Positions 243-13,199 of a stretch of DNA of 22,521 nt are shown piece by piece. The stretch lies in IMG/VR virus record IMGVR_UViG_3300020450_000102, positions 1-22,521 of that record; one strand, written 5' to 3'. Under the pieces are notes generated by a model, which was not told where the DNA came from, ran no database searches, and was given only the letters and a program-made list of their open reading frames with translations. Each line of letters opens with the position of its first letter. The first letter of the stretch is position 1. The stretch is from a virus. A program made the position numbers and the translations under genes.

Positions 243-269
243 CCAGTTTATTTACTGGAGTTTCCAGTA
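243..269. repeat. Nested inverted repeats at the end of the 465-aa gene
   Basis: TACTGGA (253-259) and TCCAGTA (263-269) form a perfect 7-base stem with a 3-base loop, overlapping the last codons and stop of the 465-aa gene. CCAGT at 243-247 can pair instead with ACTGG at 254-258, so two hairpins compete. No U-run follows on the minus strand. It may protect a 3' end or modulate the next gene, whose start is about 40 bases on. Confidence 0.4.
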
Positions 270-1649
270 CACAGAAGACTTGTCTGACTGTGAGGATGCG
301 TACAAATATATCTCTTTCATTATCTGATCAGCATCTTTATGAGTTGATACCCAATCCAATAATTTTAATCCCGCATACTTACTATACTTCCATGCTTGTT
401 CTGCCTCTGTTTTAATCCATGTCAAATCAGTTGATTTATTCTTTAAACCTTTTGCCTTATATTTTACCAGTAACTTATAAATCTCTTCATCTAACTTACC
501 ATTCTTAGCCTTAGCCCAAGTATCTGTTGCACCATACTCAGGTAGTGTACCAAACTTAGCATCCTTCAATAGTTCTTGTACCTTCTTACCTTGTATCTTA
601 CCTTGTGCAGCAGACTTACCTTTTAATTCCAACTTCCAATCACCCTTAGTAGGACCACCAAAGTTTCTTGCTTGAAACTTCTCAAAGGTACTTGTACCAT
701 AGTACAAATACACATCCATAGGATGATTATCTTTCTTTCTACCATTATCGAATGTTAAATCGTACTTTGCAAAGTGTGCTTTCTCATTCTGCTTTCTCTC
801 TGCAGCAGGTATATCATTCAACAATTTTATCTTAGGTGAACCTTCAATCTTTTTCAAAGATATACCAACTAACTGTTCTTCTACTCGCAATTGTAATAGA
901 GCATTGTTTAAACAATCAATAGTAGTTTCTTTATCAAGATGTTTCTTTACTTTAGTCTTATCTTTCACCATCCATATATCAGCAGGATTCCATTTGTCTT
1001 CTGATGATAAGTTAGTTTGACCTTTTACTCTATTAAATGCATTCTTAACTGCACCATCATCGATGATGGCATCACCTCTAACAAATGTCCATCCCTTACC
1101 ACCCACAGTATTAAAGATAGCATTGGCACCTGCCCAAGATGAATCCTGCCATTCTTTTCCTAGTGACATAATTTCATCCAATTTAGCAGTTACATCACAA
1201 TGTTTCATACCACATTTAAAATCATCTACAGTAAATGCTTTCTTCTTTTCTATGTTAGGACAGTAATATCTCATAGCAGCATAAACACACTGTGCAGATT
1301 CTACTAGTGCAGTTTGTGCAGCACCACCACCAGATCCTTTACTGTTCTCTGGTTTAACTTCTATCCTAATAACTTGCTTATCTCTTATAGGAATATCTAA
1401 GGAAGTACCTTTTGCATTAACTGTAATTCCTGGATAGTTTTCATCTAATGCACCTTGTATATTCTCAACTGCTGTAGTTCTTTTTGTTTGAGGAACAAAA
1501 ACTTTTAATGCTATCTGAATTTTCTTAGTTGAGTCCTTGTCCTCTACATTCTTAACATCAAATAAGTAATAGGAATAATCATCACCCCCCAATGCATTCA
1601 TTACATCTTCGAATGCTTGTTTATTATGTGGGGGTATTGTTATTGCCAT
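252..1649 (-). CDS. Conserved cyanophage protein of unknown function, 465 aa
   Basis: Soluble protein of 465 residues without signal peptide or membrane segment. I recognise it as a type seen in T4-like cyanophages but know no assigned function. Visible landmarks are an I-R-I-E-V-K-P stretch near residue 95 followed by a Gly-rich GSGGGAAQTALVESAQC segment, a KWNPADIWMV motif near residue 220, and a Lys-rich KLELKGKSAAQGKIQGKK segment near residue 345. The E-V-K after beta-like residues, followed by the S/G-rich loop, is loosely reminiscent of PD-(D/E)xK nucleases, but this is inference only. The start at 1649 is ATG with only a distant GGAG. An ATAAATA motif at 1674-1680 lies just upstream and could be a late promoter. 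The last codons form a short stem-loop with the intergenic region. Confidence 0.85.
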   Translation of the reverse strand: MAITIPPHNKQAFEDVMNALGGDDYSYYLFDVKNVEDKDSTKKIQIALKVFVPQTKRTTAVENIQGALDENYPGITVNAKGTSLDIPIRDKQVIRIEVKPENSKGSGGGAAQTALVESAQCVYAAMRYYCPNIEKKKAFTVDDFKCGMKHCDVTAKLDEIMSLGKEWQDSSWAGANAIFNTVGGKGWTFVRGDAIIDDGAVKNAFNRVKGQTNLSSEDKWNPADIWMVKDKTKVKKHLDKETTIDCLNNALLQLRVEEQLVGISLKKIEGSPKIKLLNDIPAAERKQNEKAHFAKYDLTFDNGRKKDNHPMDVYLYYGTSTFEKFQARNFGGPTKGDWKLELKGKSAAQGKIQGKKVQELLKDAKFGTLPEYGATDTWAKAKNGKLDEEIYKLLVKYKAKGLKNKSTDLTWIKTEAEQAWKYSKYAGLKLLDWVSTHKDADQIMKEIYLYASSQSDKSSVYWKLQ

Positions 1650-1673
1650 TAGTCAGACACAGGTCTCCACTAA

Positions 1674-1680
1674 TATTTAT
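1674..1680 (-). promoter_or_regulatory. Late-promoter-like ATAAATA motif
   Basis: The minus strand reads GAATAAATATTAG here, close to the T4-type late promoter core (TATAAATA, recognised by gp55-type sigma). It overlaps the stop codon of the 67-aa gene and sits 25 bases before the ATG of the 465-aa gene. A start site about 10 bases downstream would leave a very short leader. It is a single short A+T-rich motif, so chance occurrence is possible. Confidence 0.4.
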
Positions 1681-1880
1681 TCTCCAAGACTATCATTAAG
1701 TCCTTCTTCGACTTGTTCTAATAAAGGAACTACATGAAGAATATTATCAATATTAGATAACATGTCTGCGATGTGTTTTGATATGTATGGTTTCTCAGTA
1801 CGTGCTGCAAATGATAATGCGTTACGTAAATCTTCTTGTGCCTCTATGAGAGAGGATTCAACTTGTTGTGATAGTGCCAT
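1677..1880 (-). CDS. Small conserved cyanophage protein, 67 aa
   Basis: A 67-residue, probably all-helical acidic protein (MALSQQVESSLIEAQEDL at the N terminus, then NALSFAARTEKPYISKHIADML). It resembles a small protein I recall from several cyanomyoviruses, with no known function. No membrane segment or cysteine is present. The start ATG at 1880 follows the stop of the upstream 56-aa gene by one base, with GGAATTAAC as a weak ribosome site, so translational coupling is likely. Confidence 0.75.
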   Translation of the reverse strand: MALSQQVESSLIEAQEDLRNALSFAARTEKPYISKHIADMLSNIDNILHVVPLLEQVEEGLNDSLGE

Positions 1881-1881
1881 G

Positions 1882-2052
1882 TTAATTCCAGTGTCGGATT
1901 ACTCCTGCGATAATAAAACAATTAGTGATAAGATAAGTAAGAAAGATGAAAGATCGTATAAGGAGTACAATATTATCATACCTCTTGGTCTTCTCATCAG
2001 AGAACGAACCCAACGCATACTTCCATACTCTCCATAATTTAGTGAGGGTCAT
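1882..2052 (-). CDS. Small membrane protein, 56 aa, conserved in cyanophages
   Basis: A short gene found by reading the minus strand between its neighbours. It starts MTLTKLWRVWKYALG, continues through a charged stretch (SDEKTKRYDN), and ends in one long hydrophobic segment (about residues 28-51) followed by VIRHWN. The WRxWxYALG start and GVIRHW end match a family of tiny membrane proteins I recall from T4-like cyanophages; function unknown. One transmembrane helix is expected. The ATG at 2050-2052 overlaps the last codons of the 27-aa membrane peptide gene in another frame, and the stop is one base before the next ATG, so three tiny genes are chained. Confidence 0.75.
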   Translation of the reverse strand: MTLTKLWRVWKYALGSFSDEKTKRYDNIVLLIRSFIFLTYLITNCFIIAGVIRHWN

Positions 2053-2122
2053 AGGCATAAACCATACCCACGATGATTGCTACTATTAATAAGATAGCAA
2101 TAGATCCAAAAATTAAATGCAT
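2039..2122 (-). CDS. 27-residue membrane peptide
   Basis: A 27-codon ORF whose product is almost one transmembrane helix: MHLIFGSIAILLIVAI then IVGMVYAYDPH. Its ATG overlaps the mazG stop as TAATG. The best evidence that it is expressed is an AAGGAG sequence at 2130-2135, seven bases before the ATG, one of the strongest ribosome sites in the window and placed exactly for this start. Its 3' end overlaps the start of the 56-aa membrane protein. I do not know a function. A single-helix peptide could act at the inner or thylakoid membrane, for example in lysis control or photosystem interaction, but that is speculation. Confidence 0.65.
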   Translation of the reverse strand: MHLIFGSIAILLIVAIIVGMVYAYDPH

Positions 2123-2523
2123 TACAAATCTCCTTCTTTACGGTTTTCAGAGTAGTGGGCATCAAATTCCCCACCAGGATATCTTGATTTTAACTTATCT
2201 ATATTCATTTCAATAACCTCATCTAGATCTACTCCTAATCCCATACATGCTTGCATAACATACCACATAACATCACCCAACTCACGTTTAAGATGCCACA
2301 GGTTCTCATTATTAACTGGTTTACCTTGGAAGATTATCTTCTTAATAATCTCAGTGAACTCACCCGACTCAGCACACAATCCTACTGCAGCAGTAAGCAA
2401 TCTATGAGTATCAAAATCTTGATAATATAAATCTGCTATACGATGAGTAAATGCATCACCATCTTTGCTCTCATCAGAGGTTACACCATCAACAAATTGA
2501 GCATACTTTTTAAGATCAATCAT
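2122..2523 (-). CDS. mazG: MazG-like nucleotide pyrophosphohydrolase
   Basis: A 133-residue member of the all-alpha NTP pyrophosphohydrolase (MazG) superfamily, which converts (d)NTPs, and in E. coli MazG possibly (p)ppGpp, to monophosphates. The metal-binding pattern is visible: AESGE with E52 and E55, then KRELGDVMWYV with E81 and D84. The C-terminal RYPGGEFD fits cyanophage MazG proteins. Single-domain length is usual for phage versions; E. coli MazG has two copies. It starts inside the end of gp41 (overlap of 8 bases) without a good ribosome site, so coupling is likely. It is common in cyanomyoviruses, where a role in nucleotide pools or the starvation signal has been proposed but not settled. 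Confidence 0.93.
   Translation of the reverse strand: MIDLKKYAQFVDGVTSDESKDGDAFTHRIADLYYQDFDTHRLLTAAVGLCAESGEFTEIIKKIIFQGKPVNNENLWHLKRELGDVMWYVMQACMGLGVDLDEVIEMNIDKLKSRYPGGEFDAHYSENRKEGDL
2130..2135 (-). promoter_or_regulatory. Strong ribosome binding site (AAGGAG) of the 27-aa peptide
   Basis: The minus strand reads AAGGAG followed by seven bases and ATG. The site lies inside the last codons of mazG, and no other start codon is well placed for it, so it supports translation of the tiny membrane peptide. Confidence 0.65.
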
Positions 2524-3886
2524 ACTTTAGGTCTTGGAAAGTTTTCTTTGATTTAAATTTTTGAACTAGATCAGTCTCAGGTTGACCAGCATCAACTAGG
2601 TCTTTCTGAGATTCCTCTATATCATACAACCTCATCTTTGATCTGTCAATACCTATACAAAATCTTTTGTAAGAAGTAGGATCATTATACCTATTCTTCA
2701 ATTGCTTAACCATTATCTGTCCCAAGCCTTCCAACTCTTCTGTAGAAATAAGGGCAAACATAAGGTCAGCAGTAGCAGGGAGTCCAAAAGATTCAGAGGT
2801 GTCAGTAAGGTCGACATCGCTACTACCGTAACCGCTACGAGTAGTTTGAGTGGCAGATATAATCGGAACGTTCGCCTCAACTGCGAGACCCCTAAGTTCT
2901 TCTGCGATTGCTTTAACATAAGTATAAGAATTTACAATGGATCCTTTGTACCTTTGAGAGGCACATATATTTAAATAATCTACAAATATAATATCAGGTC
3001 GAATAGATCTCTTAAGAGCAAGATCATTAAGAAGAGATTTAAAATGTCCAACGTGTGCAGAAGCAGTAGGATACTCTTTAATAATTAATTTACCTTGAGT
3101 TTTCTTAGAAAGATTTGCAATCTTCTTTTCAAACATTACTTTCGGAAAATCTGAAAGTTTTTGAATGGGGATGTTGAGTAAATTCGCATCAATGCGTTCA
3201 GCGATTTTCTCCTCCGCCATTTCCAACGTGATGTAAAGTACATTTTTCCCTTGAAGAAGGGCAGAGGCAGCACAGTGACACATAAACAAAGACTTGCCCA
3301 CACCAGTACCAGCAAGTGCGATATTAAGAGTCTTGTTAGGAAGACCACCCTTCGTAATTTTATTGAAGAGAGATAAATCAAAAGGGATTTTATCTTCTTT
3401 GCGATGATAGAAATCATATCTTGCTTCTGCGTCTGAGACATAATCGTGTCCTACGTGTTGATCGAATGATACACCAAGTGCTTCTGATAAAATTTGAGGA
3501 ATGGCACCCTTATCTTTCTTAGAGTCCTGACCATCAGCAATCTTAACACTCTCCATAAGAGATAAGTAGATCGCACGTTCTTGACACCACTTCTCGGTAG
3601 CATCTAGTAACCAGTCATGGTCTGATATATCATCAGAAAGAACATTTAAAACTCCAATAACATCTTTAAATTGTTCTTCAGTTAGATCAGTTCTTTCTTG
3701 ACACTCAATCCCTAAAGCATTAAGAGACGGTAACGCATCATACTGACTAACATATTCATGAATCTCTAAGAAGATAATCTTATGTTCACGTGCAGTAAAG
3801 TATTCTGACTTAAGGAATGGTAATACTTTTCTGGTATACTTTTCACTGTATACCAGATTACTGAGAATAGTTACTTCTAAGTTCAT
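2516..3886 (-). CDS. 41: Replicative DNA helicase, gp41 (DnaB-like)
   Basis: A 456-residue RecA-type hexameric helicase that unwinds DNA at the phage replication fork and works with a primase. The Walker A motif GTGVGKS lies at residues 193-199. DIIFVDYLN at about 298-306 is Walker B with D303. A SATQTTRSGY segment near 345 is the DnaB H3-like motif, and a C-terminal region with IDRSKMR follows. The length is close to T4 gp41. The ATG at 3886 overlaps the stop of the upstream oxygenase gene (ATGA) and lacks a ribosome site, pointing to translational coupling. It lies downstream of uvsX and gp43 in the same direction, in the usual cyanomyovirus order. Confidence 0.95.
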   Translation of the reverse strand: MNLEVTILSNLVYSEKYTRKVLPFLKSEYFTAREHKIIFLEIHEYVSQYDALPSLNALGIECQERTDLTEEQFKDVIGVLNVLSDDISDHDWLLDATEKWCQERAIYLSLMESVKIADGQDSKKDKGAIPQILSEALGVSFDQHVGHDYVSDAEARYDFYHRKEDKIPFDLSLFNKITKGGLPNKTLNIALAGTGVGKSLFMCHCAASALLQGKNVLYITLEMAEEKIAERIDANLLNIPIQKLSDFPKVMFEKKIANLSKKTQGKLIIKEYPTASAHVGHFKSLLNDLALKRSIRPDIIFVDYLNICASQRYKGSIVNSYTYVKAIAEELRGLAVEANVPIISATQTTRSGYGSSDVDLTDTSESFGLPATADLMFALISTEELEGLGQIMVKQLKNRYNDPTSYKRFCIGIDRSKMRLYDIEESQKDLVDAGQPETDLVQKFKSKKTFQDLKYD

Positions 3887-5649: not shown

Positions 5650-8132
5650 CCGAATAAAAATTCAAGGTTAGCAACTTTTTCTGGCTTCCATCCTATTGTA
5701 TCCATAATGACTTTAATTGGTTCAAGAAAACTCTTGCTAAATTGTAAGTCATAATCCACCTGTTTGTCAAGCCCAAATTCATGAGGAAAAGTGCTTAAGA
5801 AACTAATCACATTTTCTCCGATCTTGTTGGGTGTCTTTAAGTATACAAATTTAATCTTTTCGCCATCCTGTATTAAGGGATACTTATGTTTCAATTTGTT
5901 TTTCTTATTATGAAAATTGTAGAGTAATGCTCCTCTAACATGAATAGGTGTTCCCTTTGCGTAAAGGGTAGCAGGATGTGCCCATTTATTTAGATTATTA
6001 CAACCTCTTGGAAATGAGATATCTTCAATAGGTAATGATGTAAACTCTTCCCTAAAATCAGCAATAAATTTCTGTGCTGCGTCCTCATCTTTATTCATAA
6101 TAACTGTCAATGCGTCTCTAATTGCTGTACGACAAGCAGCAGGAGTAGAGGACTTAACTGCCTCCAAACCCATGATTTTAAGTTTAGGTTTCTCATATCG
6201 AACACCTTCACTATCCCACACATTAAGAATGTAACGTTTCTTAGCAGTCCATATACCTTTATTAGCAATGTTCTCTCGCTTCATGAACATTTTCTGTTCA
6301 TAAGCACCTACGTACTTGGCCAATTCTTCATAAGAACTCGTAATATACTTCTCAAGTTCCATCTCACAGATCTTATTAAGGAACGACACAATGCTCTTAT
6401 CAGTTTTCTCTCTGCCCTTGTATACAGTTTCGACCAAAGGACCAAGGTTGAGGTAGATACTATCAGTATCACTAGCAATAACATAATCTTCCTCCTCTGT
6501 TTTAAGTATCTTGTTTAGATACTTATTCATTTTGTTTTCAATCCAACGGATGCTAACCTGCCCACTAAGAGTAATCGCCTCAGCATTAGATAAGTTGTAG
6601 TATCTAAAGTACTGGTTTCCAATGGCACCATAAGCCGAATTGAGCTGTATTTTTCTAGCCATTTGGATGTTATTGAATTTACTAATATCTCTTTGTAGTT
6701 TGGCACTTGGCGAAACTTCATAGTCCCGCTTCGCTTGGAGCATTTTCTTTTTATAAATCGTTCGCTCATCATAAATCTTCTGCATAATTTCTGGTAAGAA
6801 CCCATACACATCCTTACGATACTGAGCACCGTTAGCACATGTTGCGAATTCAGGATCAATCTCTACCTCTTGATTTAAGATCCTCTCAACGCTCGCACTG
6901 GGATGTCTAGTCTCCCAGAGGGTCTCTGGGGAAATATTGTACTGCATAATAAGATGAGGATACAGACTATTGAGGTCAAAACTGACAACCCAATCATACT
7001 TTCCTGGAATCGGTTCTTTGACATAAGCACCTGCGTATTTTTCATCTTTTTTAGATCCCTTTCGGGGTGGAACAACAATGTTCTTTTCACGTAGGTAATT
7101 ATAAATGATGGTATCCCACATGCGAACCTGTGAGTACACATCCTCAAAGTTTACCTTCGCATCATAAGACATAGTAATTGCTAGTTCTAGCAACTTCATC
7201 TTATCTTCAAGACGGTCAATTAGTTCAACGTCTTGGATGTTATATTCCATGAACTTCTGCCAATCAGAGGTATAGAAGTCCTTGAAGTTTTCGTATTCAG
7301 AGTGATCAACTTTTCGCTGACCAAGTTCGACGAAAGCGATGTGGTCAAGTCGGTAAGACTCTTGATTTGAATATGTAAACTTACGATATAGATCAAGGTA
7401 ATCAAGGATATTGACACCAGAGATATCATAAGCATAATTTTTACGTCCTTGGACATAGACTTCTCTCTCATTAGCACGGTTCCATGGTGACAAACTCTTC
7501 ATCCATTTCTCACCAAGAACTCTGTTTACACGTCTAGCAATGTATGGTACGTCATATAGATTCACGTTCCAACCAGTTAAGATGTCAGGGGTATTCTCAA
7601 CCCACCAACCAAGAAAATGATTTAACATTTCCTTCTCATTCCAAAAGATATGAGTCTCTACACCTTCTGGTGCTTCAAATTCACGAGTTGCCCAACAGTA
7701 ATACTGCTTTGTCACCATGTCTTTAATGGTGATTGACAACATTTCTTCTGCTGCTTCTTCTACATTAGGGAATCCATTCTCGCATTGAACCTCAATGTCC
7801 ATTGCATAGATCTTCATCTGATTGATACTATAATCAACCTCATCAGGAAACTCTTGGGTAATAAACTGATATACAAATCGCTCATACCCATGAACTTTAA
7901 ACCCTTCAACATTCTGATACTGTTGAATAAACTCCCTTGCTTCTCGTGAAGATTCAAATTTAACTGGGCGAACATTCTCACCCTCTAGAGTTTTATACTT
8001 CTCCTCCTTGTTTGAAGTTACAAATAAGGTAGGACTAAAATGGGCACGAGATTGGACTCTTTGCCCATCCTCGTACCCACGATAGAGAATTGTATTACCT
8101 GCAAGTTGAACGTTGGTGTAGAACCTACTCAT
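5646..8132 (-). CDS. 43: DNA polymerase, family B, gp43
   Basis: The replicative polymerase with 3'-5' proofreading, 828 residues (T4 gp43 is 898). Motifs in order: Exo I YAMDIEV, Exo II around WNVNLYDVPYIARR, Exo III YNIQDVELIDRL, Pol A SFDLNSLYPHLIMQYN, Pol B KIQLNSAYGAIGNQYFRYYN, Pol C ASDTDSIYLN, and KKRYILNVWD. A longer frame runs to 8171, but starting at 8132 (MSRFYTNVQLAG) places the exonuclease residues at D112 and E114, the same numbers as in T4, and gives the usual N terminus. The start overlaps the upstream Sm-like gene by 8 bases. An AAGGAG lies 13 bases upstream, farther than ideal. All catalytic residues seem intact, so it should be active. Confidence 0.97.
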   Translation of the reverse strand: MSRFYTNVQLAGNTILYRGYEDGQRVQSRAHFSPTLFVTSNKEEKYKTLEGENVRPVKFESSREAREFIQQYQNVEGFKVHGYERFVYQFITQEFPDEVDYSINQMKIYAMDIEVQCENGFPNVEEAAEEMLSITIKDMVTKQYYCWATREFEAPEGVETHIFWNEKEMLNHFLGWWVENTPDILTGWNVNLYDVPYIARRVNRVLGEKWMKSLSPWNRANEREVYVQGRKNYAYDISGVNILDYLDLYRKFTYSNQESYRLDHIAFVELGQRKVDHSEYENFKDFYTSDWQKFMEYNIQDVELIDRLEDKMKLLELAITMSYDAKVNFEDVYSQVRMWDTIIYNYLREKNIVVPPRKGSKKDEKYAGAYVKEPIPGKYDWVVSFDLNSLYPHLIMQYNISPETLWETRHPSASVERILNQEVEIDPEFATCANGAQYRKDVYGFLPEIMQKIYDERTIYKKKMLQAKRDYEVSPSAKLQRDISKFNNIQMARKIQLNSAYGAIGNQYFRYYNLSNAEAITLSGQVSIRWIENKMNKYLNKILKTEEEDYVIASDTDSIYLNLGPLVETVYKGREKTDKSIVSFLNKICEMELEKYITSSYEELAKYVGAYEQKMFMKRENIANKGIWTAKKRYILNVWDSEGVRYEKPKLKIMGLEAVKSSTPAACRTAIRDALTVIMNKDEDAAQKFIADFREEFTSLPIEDISFPRGCNNLNKWAHPATLYAKGTPIHVRGALLYNFHNKKNKLKHKYPLIQDGEKIKFVYLKTPNKIGENVISFLSTFPHEFGLDKQVDYDLQFSKSFLEPIKVIMDTIGWKPEKVANLEFLFG

Positions 8133-11718: not shown

Positions 11719-12183
11719 ATGAATAAATTTATCCTATTATTCTTATTATTAATTCCGTCTAGAACTCTTGCTGTGCCAGTGGTCCCCAACTTCCAGCAAG
11801 GTTCGATGACGAGCCATACCGAGACTGAATCTACAGTCACGGAAACCATAAATTCAGTTGATTATCGTACAGGATGGGAATATTCAGTGACAGGTGTAGG
11901 GATCTCCAACGATGGAGCGGCTTTGAATCCCAACGTCAACACCTCAACAGTGACAATAGAGCCAAGCGTCGGCACCAATGGAGACATGGTGACAGGAAGC
12001 GTAGTATCTTCTCACGATGCATTGGACTTCTCCAGTCAAAGCAATTACACAATGACAACTCCAGGTGCGGCGTTTCAATTCACCCAGAGTTATCAAGGCC
12101 CAGGCATGACCAATCAAACTCTCATACAGAGAGTCACCACAATCGAATCCGTCACAGACACAACAAGCGTGTTTACGCAGTAA
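11719..12183 (+). CDS. Secreted protein B of the plus-strand cassette
   Basis: A 154-residue protein with signal peptide MNKFILLFLLLIPSRTLA and probable cleavage at TLA before VPVVP. The mature part is rich in Thr, Ser and Val, probably beta structure, and carries TPGAAFQFTQSYQGPG near the C-terminal third, matching protein A. It begins 10 bases after gene A. Base use differs from most of the window: 11881-11940 is about 50% and 11941-12000 about 53% G+C by count, with many C-ending codons, unlike genes such as mazG. A second frame (frame of gene C) stays open across most of it. This could mean recent acquisition from a G+C-richer relative. Function unknown. Confidence 0.8.
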   Translation: MNKFILLFLLLIPSRTLAVPVVPNFQQGSMTSHTETESTVTETINSVDYRTGWEYSVTGVGISNDGAALNPNVNTSTVTIEPSVGTNGDMVTGSVVSSHDALDFSSQSNYTMTTPGAAFQFTQSYQGPGMTNQTLIQRVTTIESVTDTTSVFTQ

Positions 12184-13199
12184 TAGCAACGGTTCTCGGT
12201 TTTAATTCTTTACCTATAGGAGCACTAGCTCAAGGTGTAGGTGGTGTTAGTGCTACTGCTAATCCTATAGCCAATAGTTCGGGCTCGGTCACGAACCAGG
12301 CAATACAAGTTTTACAAGGTCCATACGTAACTAACACCTACGGTGGTGGTGTGTCATGTCAAGGTACGACTATGAATATGACACCATACATTCAGTTCGC
12401 TGATAGTAGGAAAGATCCATGGGAAGATTTTTATAACGAACCACAATATAATACTAGTGATACTACAGGTAAGATGGTTCCTACCTATGTTAATGTCAAG
12501 AATTATCCTTGGGAAGAGTGGTATGACGATAGAACATATACAGATGAAAATGGTGATGAAGTAAGATGGTTCCCAGATGGATCAGATATTACAATCATTC
12601 AAGATGTAGACAGTCCTAATGGTGTACCAGATGTAGTTGATACTGGTGGGGAAATGACCCCATCATGGTTTAAACCTGTGCGTACTGACATGAGAGCAAA
12701 CCAATCCTTTAACGTAGGTCTCTCTGCTACGCTTTCAATACCACTCAACAGGGGTATGCAACGTAGATGTAAGGAGGCAGCAGAAGCACAGATAGCATCC
12801 GTTCAACAGTTGACTGCTAATAAAAGATTAGACTTCGAAATCGCTCGTCTCAAAAATTGTGGTGAGCTCATGAAGGCTGGTATTATGTTCCATCCCAAAT
12901 CACCTTATGCTTCTATATGTTCTGACGTAGTTGTAACAGCACCAGGTGGACAGATCATTCCACACGAACACCAGATACCACAACCTAGTTGGACTAACCC
13001 TTCTTCTTCAAAGGAGGTAGACCTTTCTTCTCTCGGTACTTCTCAGTCATCCTCTCAGTCAAGTTTGGACGGCGTTCCTCTTTCTTCCCAAGTAATTTTT
13101 GAACCTTCGTCATCACCTTCTTCACAACAGGCTTCACAGCCTTCAGGATCAGATCTGCTAGGGGTTTGGCAAATAGGGCGGATGCAGTCGCAACCGTAG
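12147..13199 (+). CDS. Secreted protein C of the plus-strand cassette, no canonical start codon
   Basis: About 350 residues. A signal peptide is evident (RHRHNKR, then VYAVIATVLGFNSLPIG, ALA, cleavage before QGVGG), but no ATG, GTG or TTG precedes it until ATG 11874, deep inside gene B. The coordinate given is an ATC codon just before the basic region; ATA at 12183, overlapping the gene B stop as TAATA, is the alternative. The mature part contains SVTNQAIQVLQGPYVTNTYGG, acidic WEDFY/WEEWY repeats, and a helical segment with CKEAAEAQIASVQQL and RLDFEIARLKNCGELM. I recall this protein in many cyanomyoviruses without known function. The last 68 residues, Ser-rich, are read antisense to the opposing gene. 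Confidence 0.7.
   Translation: MRHRHNKRVYAVIATVLGFNSLPIGALAQGVGGVSATANPIANSSGSVTNQAIQVLQGPYVTNTYGGGVSCQGTTMNMTPYIQFADSRKDPWEDFYNEPQYNTSDTTGKMVPTYVNVKNYPWEEWYDDRTYTDENGDEVRWFPDGSDITIIQDVDSPNGVPDVVDTGGEMTPSWFKPVRTDMRANQSFNVGLSATLSIPLNRGMQRRCKEAAEAQIASVQQLTANKRLDFEIARLKNCGELMKAGIMFHPKSPYASICSDVVVTAPGGQIIPHEHQIPQPSWTNPSSSKEVDLSSLGTSQSSSQSSLDGVPLSSQVIFEPSSSPSSQQASQPSGSDLLGVWQIGRMQSQP

Follow-up and report, generated by a model that had tools for sequence, protein, structure and literature searches.

The 27-codon open reading frame (ORF) that follows mazG in a T4-like cyanophage genome is shown, by the pattern of nucleotide substitution among its relatives, to be a real protein-coding gene under purifying selection, and from that selection we infer that the 27-aa peptide is translated. 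It belongs to a family of single-helix microproteins that end in the tail motif [YF][DN]PH. This family is the new part of a chain of small genes, the two other products of which, 56 and 67 aa long, fall in existing PHROG families; a literature search, with subscription papers and preprints outside its scope, found no paper on it. We favour, at a probability of roughly 0.45, the reading that the peptide is a phage-specific early membrane microprotein which would modulate a host membrane protein while docked by its tail on a conserved partner.

The window, that is, the whole stretch of DNA analysed here, comprises 22,521 bases and is the virus record of a T4-like cyanophage. Among named phages, Prochlorococcus phage P-SSM7 is closest to it by DNA (79.7% over 76% of window positions 1600-2560). 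The chain that follows mazG comprises two predicted small membrane proteins and one soluble helical protein (Table 1). A preliminary description had reported the layout of this region, with a 27-aa ORF preceded by AAGGAG seven bases before its ATG, a TAATG junction between the end of mazG and the start of this ORF, an overlapping 56-aa ORF, and a 67-aa ORF that begins one base past the 56-aa stop, and our analysis confirmed it, this last junction reading TAA C ATG. It also stands, on conservation and selection, that all three ORFs are genes and that the 27- and 56-aa products are predicted membrane proteins. For the 56-aa ORF, an alternative start at 2058 gives a 58-aa form, and relatives such as P-SSM7 begin at the equivalent of 2052; the gene has no evident Shine-Dalgarno (SD) sequence of its own. 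The order in P-SSM7 is gp41, mazG, purH2, a small CDS, 'Rnf-Nqr' (56 aa), 67 aa and denV, with purH2 an insertion relative to the window. Elsewhere in the window, two long plus-strand ORFs (11719-12183 and 11874-13199) overlap by about 300 bases in different frames, and the longer one probably starts further downstream.

Table 1. Features of the small-gene chain and of its flanking genes in the window.
Feature	Position	Strand	Remarks
27-aa single-transmembrane (TM) microprotein MHLIFGSIAILLIVAIIVGMVYAYDPH	2039..2122	(-)	[YF][DN]PH family member
AAGGAG ribosome-binding site	2130..2135	(-)	Nested in the mazG 3' end, 7 bases ahead of the microprotein ATG
14-nt overlap	2039..2052	(-)	The ATG and opening codons of the 56-aa gene lie, in a different frame, within the microprotein YDPH* codons
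56-aa protein, short N-terminal helix and long helix with one TM stretch	1882..2052	(-)	phrog_1679; 'Rnf-Nqr' T4-GC 416 in GenBank
67-aa two-helix hairpin protein	1677..1880	(-)	phrog_1179; T4-GC 61
mazG, 133 aa, upstream gene	2122..2523	(-)	Pfam MazG PF03819, E 7e-11
gp41-like DNA primase-helicase, upstream of mazG	2516..3886	(-)	Annotation of matching records
465-aa protein, downstream of the chain	252..1649	(-)	phrog_1462, function not known

The family has a common architecture, in which a hydrophobic stretch of about 18-20 residues runs from almost the N-terminus (the predicted helix begins at residue 2-4) and is followed by a short tail carrying [YF][DN]PH, with 0-3 residues after the motif. 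We assembled 80 distinct single-helix peptides of 24-29 aa with a C-terminal [YF][DN]PH, and the window peptide has this length range, the one hydrophobic helix and the C-terminal motif. Length changes among members preserve the frame, and the start codon is ATG, TTG or GTG. A tblastn search of the phage collection with the 27-aa peptide returned no match, even at E 10; this blank reflects a limit of the method, because a relative then turned up in P-SSM7 when we read the DNA upstream of its 56-aa gene, where the frame of the window peptide reads MHLVLPIICIGLIVLVIVYSVLNRYDPH.

The first sample combined an IMG/VR pattern scan for MHL...YDPH* with the loci fetched with the 56- and 67-aa proteins. 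It held 66 distinct stretches, 54 of them in frame (the 12/66 out of frame were dropped) and 53 of these hydrophobic; the in-frame, non-hydrophobic stretch of locus L238 was excluded from the counts. For a third subfamily (...RYYDPH), the pattern ...IRYYDPH* retrieved 33 loci, and in 32 of these the hydrophobic frame, 24-25 aa long, is open. Since both patterns select for YDPH, only members retrieved by other means count as evidence that those codons are conserved. When 36,524 short ORFs of the collected loci were searched with a profile, members ending YNPH, YDPHN, YDPHCN and YNPHHH were added that the MHL...YDPH* pattern had passed over. The motif also occurs in loci (L108, L110, L112, L114, L115, L118-L120, L126, L166 and L167) and named phages (P-SSM2, P-SSM3, P-SSM4 and P-RSM3) that were not selected by a YDPH pattern, and 34/80 distinct members sit in loci fetched by no microprotein pattern or profile. 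The C-terminal motif persists even in places free of any overlap with a downstream gene.

Among 47 distinct DNAs of the 28-aa members, pN/pS was 0.32, and it was 0.41 overall once the pattern-selected MHL and YDPH codons were excluded. Within two large subfamilies, dN/dS was 0.115 (n = 28) and 0.112 (n = 15) with these codons excluded, and 0.09 when they were kept. Five DNAs, up to 18 nt apart, encode one identical peptide, and the two alternative frames are closed by stops in 28/28 and 27/28 sequences of one subfamily and in 15/15 and 15/15 of the other. The two observations that the preliminary description had singled out as decisive, conservation of the reading frame and the synonymous pattern, thus both speak for coding, with the frame conserved in relatives and the substitutions coding-like. 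Common descent of the microprotein subfamilies is likely, and we go no further than likely because they share little beyond hydrophobicity and the tail.

Hydrophobic short ORFs lie ahead of the 56- and 67-aa genes more commonly than by chance. Among loci that no pattern or profile for the microprotein had fetched, 22/100 distinct 56-aa loci (18 with the tail motif, 3 with YKYWV and 1 other) and 8/66 distinct 67-aa loci (all 8 with the motif) showed a hydrophobic ORF of 20-45 aa that has a strong SD and stops where the following gene starts. The same was seen at 11/593 control starts of long ORFs, of which 11/11 proved on inspection to be other frames of the 56-aa gene itself. With the pattern-fetched loci included, the counts were 25/111 and 18/90, respectively, against 17/1148 in the control. 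The YKYWV ending recurs in P-RSM6, where a hydrophobic ORF of 24-25 aa with a strong SD lies between mazG and the 56-aa gene (L266 1258-1332), and before the 56-aa gene of L117, L157, L158, L160 and L161; this type may be a divergent form or a replacement of the microprotein. Other hydrophobic ORFs, of 23-28 aa and resembling M(W/N)YI..W.....KLGVFKK, overlap the 56-aa start in L049, L053, L069, L073, L079 and L080 and possibly form a second microprotein family. These ORFs, that of L004 and the YKYWV type were not counted as members, and P-RSM6 was scored as motif-less.

The strong SD of the microgene is embedded in the conserved C-terminus of MazG, ENRxxGD, the Gly-Asp codons of which provide it. 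Across 60 distinct mazG ends (one mis-framed end was dropped), the Gly codon is GGA in 39/47 cases in which the peptide follows, as compared with 3/13 cases in which it does not (Fisher p = 1e-4, uncorrected for kinship); GGT is the main choice in the latter group (10/13). This association suggests that the Gly codon is selected for the downstream start. Such a strong SD does not mark the family as a whole, for behind genes other than mazG neither GGAG nor GGTG occurs in 19/28 contexts.

Upstream of the microgene, the 72 distinct contexts have a gene of the mazG cluster (43), an unknown 107-aa gene (8), purH2 (7), psbA (1) or, in the rest, others; downstream lie the 56-aa gene (36), the 67-aa gene (20) or, in the remainder, other genes. 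The psbA context is that of locus L186, in which a microprotein relative sits directly behind psbA (confirmed as phrog_182). The sequence is kept across these many neighbourhoods, and the microgene therefore moves as a unit. The main text of Sullivan et al. 2010 places hot-spots for extra genes close to gp5, together with tRNAs, and close to psbA (PMC3037559); the copy of P-RSM4 follows a tRNA immediately, some 1 kb downstream from gp5, and that of L186 lies at psbA. Often the following gene starts, in another frame, inside the stop region of the microgene (taTGACCCTCAyTAA). The variable bases of this overlap, examined in loci of which part had been selected for YDPH, leave the peptide unchanged and alter the downstream protein (MTLT, MTLI, MIHI, MTHI).

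Sigma70-like promoters with 11/12 consensus bases and 17-base spacing, ending 23-26 bases before the start, precede the microgene in 5/71 contexts, which fall in two types (L209, L216, L225 and L237; and L200); a crude null, made by shuffling two-base blocks, reaches 11/12 at 0.33%. T4-like cyanophages have early, middle and late expression clusters (PMC5082946), and these near-consensus promoters suggest that the microgene is expressed early. Two further contexts with 10/12 promoter bases (L202 and L219; null 2.8%) were not used as promoter evidence. By eye, a terminator-like hairpin and T run end at the microgene ATG in L200 (minus strand, microgene 8018-8104) and in L186 (minus strand, 694-780). 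In L200 the hairpin follows the near-perfect sigma70 promoter, so that the transcript would start with the hairpin, a possible case of leader control.

We widened the family profile stepwise (A1, A7, A8) and then ran it on whole phage records, locating a microprotein copy in 12/23 named records: P-SSM7, P-SSM2, P-SSM3, P-SSM4, P-RSM1, P-RSM3, P-RSM4, P-TIM40, P-TIM68, S-SSM4, S-SSM7 and the single-cell virus AG-345-P14. Most of the 23 had entered the sample because they carry the 56- or 67-aa gene, and ACG-2014a because of its mazG. Queries with microprotein DNA matched P-SSM7 and the AG-345-P14 contig as well. Profile A7 includes the peptides of P-SSM7, P-SSM2 and P-SSM3, and A8 additionally those of P-SSM4/P-RSM3, P-RSM1, P-RSM4, P-TIM68, P-TIM40 and S-SSM4. 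With profiles that lacked the peptide of the phage in question, P-SSM2 was matched at E 1.7e-4, S-SSM7 at E 3e-4, and P-RSM1, P-RSM4, P-SSM4, P-RSM3, P-TIM68 and S-SSM4 at E 1e-5 to 1.3e-3. The weakest copies are those of P-TIM40 and S-SSM7; in P-TIM40 the copy reached only E 0.03 by such a profile, another stretch there scoring slightly better (E 0.012). This second match (E 0.005 or 0.012) lies inside a 69-codon frame with the motif in mid-frame, and we read it as chance, as we do a second match in P-TIM68 (E 0.07) that has no motif. Each carrier record thus holds one credible copy. No credible copy was found in 11/23 named records, and a direct search for the tail codons in ten of these 11 gave 7 matches, 0 of them in the microprotein frame; the microprotein is therefore not required by all such phages. 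By host, read from the phage name where the record states none, a copy is carried by 9/10 Prochlorococcus isolates and by 2/10 Synechococcus isolates (Fisher p = 0.0055, uncorrected for kinship; the 3 single-cell virus contigs of the 23 records were excluded).

In none of the nine annotated cultured-phage records inspected at the place (P-SSM7, P-SSM2, P-SSM3, P-SSM4, P-RSM1, P-RSM3, P-RSM4, P-TIM68 and S-SSM4) is a CDS annotated in the microprotein frame. The microgene occupies a gap between two CDSs in eight of them, and in P-SSM7 it is overlapped by a CDS of another frame. In P-SSM2 it spans about 59,795-59,881 of GU071092.1, and in P-SSM4 the gap that holds it is 149,730-149,812. This P-SSM7 CDS (ADO98922, T4-GC 714; GU071103.1 151361-151477, L001 1888-2004) overlaps the real microprotein and is probably a wrong call. 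The earlier expectation that gene finders would miss the first two ORFs of the chain therefore holds for the 27-aa ORF and fails for the 56-aa gene, which is often annotated.

The peptide had one match among 151 host-family genomes, and so had the 56-aa protein, both on the same contig (L302), which carries a T4-like DNA polymerase. A host origin of the microprotein was rejected on these counts and on a scan of the genome collection with the 56-aa protein, which gave 12 loci. Plainly phage neighbours were a DnaB-like helicase (L299), a clamp loader (L305), a virion or tail protein (L303) and the T4-like DNA polymerase of the L302 contig; in L304, L306, L307 and L308 the single neighbour tested in each had no informative PHROG match, and the neighbour check left out L297, L298, L300 and L301. 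As far as tested, the microprotein family is phage-specific.

The profile of phrog_1679 matches residues 5-58 of the 56-aa protein in its 58-aa form (E 4e-27), and that of phrog_1179 matches residues 1-64 of the 67-aa protein (E 2.2e-27). By tblastn, the 56-aa protein was found in 241 phage-collection records (matches were taken up to E 10 and may include a few by chance) and the 67-aa protein in 202; 218 and 191 of these, respectively, cover 80% or more of the query. Purifying selection acts on both proteins, with dN/dS of 0.10 for the 56-aa protein (95 DNAs) and 0.18 for the 67-aa protein (77 DNAs). The AlphaFold2 model of the 56-aa protein has a short helix at residues 3-13 and a long helix at 23-55 that includes the hydrophobic stretch (mean pLDDT 81), and that of the 67-aa protein is a two-helix hairpin (pLDDT 90); no PDB relative of either was found by profile or by Foldseek with these models (E <= 0.001). 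The 'Rnf-Nqr' label that several GenBank records attach to the 56-aa family (T4-GC 416) is without support from Pfam or NCBIfam profiles: the best NCBIfam match was RsxE at E 0.13, in 1/12 members, and Pfam gave no Rnf/Nqr match. The terms rnf, transmembrane and 416 are absent from the main text of Sullivan et al. 2010 (PMC3037559). The 67-aa gene follows the microprotein or the 56-aa gene in P-SSM7, P-SSM3, P-SSM4, P-RSM3 and P-RSM6, and the 56-aa gene often occurs without the microprotein.

For the microprotein itself, none of the libraries searched (Pfam with the window peptide alone) gave a convincing family match. Weak matches of the window peptide to phrog_6829 (E 0.2) and to Pfam Flp1-like (E 0.15) were judged to be chance between hydrophobic stretches; its NCBIfam match to MyrrCad (E 0.0028, 17.1 bits vs a cut-off of 33) and the matches of other members to phrog_9430 (E 0.0071, 3/19) and to phrog_12443, 'membrane protein' (E 0.023, 1/21), were likewise ascribed to chance. 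No named holin family was among the matches to PHROG and NCBIfam profiles, or to Pfam for the window peptide, and the small-subunit profiles of photosystems and cytochromes (PDB and NCBIfam; Pfam for the window peptide) gave no convincing match, Psb34 reaching E 0.28 in 1/19 members. The photosystem or lysis machinery that the preliminary description had suggested as a target thus gained no link by sequence, in the libraries searched, to a photosystem subunit or a holin, despite the one psbA-adjacent relative.

Under the reading we favour, the microprotein would be made early or in mid-infection and would insert in the host membrane with its tail in the cytoplasm. A K or R lies at most three residues before the motif in 68/80 distinct members (the window copy is among the 12 without), and by the positive-inside rule this charge, which the window copy lacks, points to a cytoplasmic tail. 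The Y[DN]PH tail may then dock on one conserved membrane partner, of host or phage, and docking may alter the activity or stability of that partner, as with other single-helix regulators of membrane complexes. We favour binding of a partner by the tail because a helix from residue 2-4 and a short conserved tail leave little beyond insertion and tail contact. Translation of the 56-aa protein is probably coupled to the microprotein stop, and this protein may act in the same membrane. A bolder proposal, which we hold to be rather doubtful, is that T4-like phages of Prochlorococcus carry, almost as a rule, one stand-alone, mobile, early takeover microprotein whose Y[DN]PH tail captures a conserved host membrane component.

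Behind the early-regulator reading we rank superinfection exclusion and a photosynthetic accessory role, and behind these lysis and a mere leader function. Exclusion would mean that the microprotein, alone or together with the 56-aa protein, acts early in the membrane to keep out the DNA of a second phage; this would fit a small membrane peptide in an early-type setting that is phage-only as far as tested, patchy in presence and found in shifting neighbourhoods. We nevertheless consider exclusion unlikely, as the peptide has no convincing link to a named family, and a tail so strongly conserved across very different phages would suit a shared conserved target better than an arms race. Somewhat less probable again is an accessory subunit that binds PSII, cytochrome b6f or NDH and sustains electron flow during infection. 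Such complexes typically contain tiny single-helix subunits, psbA immediately precedes one relative, and nearly all Prochlorococcus isolates searched (9/10) carry a copy. Against this, no host homologue was found in 150/151 host-family genomes, in contrast to known cyanophage photosynthesis genes, which have host homologues; no subunit in PDB, Pfam or NCBIfam matched convincingly, and psbA is adjacent in only 1/72 contexts.

We give little credence to a holin-like, antiholin-like or amurin-like lysis factor. Its small size and single hydrophobic helix would suit such a role, and cyanophage holins are poorly known, but no endolysin is annotated beside the microgene in the 9 annotated records inspected, of the lysozymes seen, the one closest to a copy is the gp5 tail lysozyme, some 1 kb upstream in P-RSM4, and no named holin family was matched. 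Lysis is disfavoured because the usual setting is beside mazG and early-type promoters stand in five loci. Equally improbable is an ORF that merely ferries ribosomes from mazG to the 56- or 67-aa start, its peptide unused, as might be read from the downstream ATG that is usually nested in the YDPH* codons, the 56-aa gene without an evident SD and the mazG GGA codon that goes with the presence of the peptide. In its pure form this leader reading was rejected because of the signs of selection: with the motif codons excluded, dN/dS within subfamilies is about 0.11, [YF][DN]PH is kept where nothing overlaps the tail, and the variable bases of the overlap change the downstream protein and not the peptide. 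Some copies of the peptide stand behind a promoter or ahead of unrelated genes.

T4-like cyanophages are among the most abundant viruses of the ocean, and carriers of the microgene such as P-SSM2, P-SSM4 and P-SSM7 are laboratory isolates. Since a conserved gene of about 80 bases is unannotated in 9/9 inspected records, transcriptomes and proteomes read against those annotations would have missed it, and its frame, start and sequence can be used directly to re-examine existing RNA-seq and mass-spectrometry data from infections. The strict tail motif turns the search for a partner into a concrete experiment. If the tail does capture a host membrane component, identifying it would expose a point at which ocean photosynthesis or membrane biology is controlled and on which the phage depends.

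Several known systems invite comparison. T4 Imm and Sp are small early membrane proteins that bring about superinfection exclusion by blocking DNA entry of a second phage. They resemble the microprotein as small early membrane proteins of T4-like phages, but are larger, and the likeness is one of description, no similarity having surfaced in the libraries searched. PsbT and PsbM of PSII and PetN of cytochrome b6f are single-helix subunits that share with the microprotein its size, its one helix and a photosynthetic host; the microprotein differs from them in that it has no convincing profile match and no host homologue in 150/151 genomes. KdpF, CydX and AcrZ are small single-TM regulators of membrane complexes. 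We know of no [YF][DN]PH tail signature in these three, and no relation to them surfaced in the libraries searched; by description, they and the microprotein are alike in being about 25-50 aa long, with one helix and a short tail.
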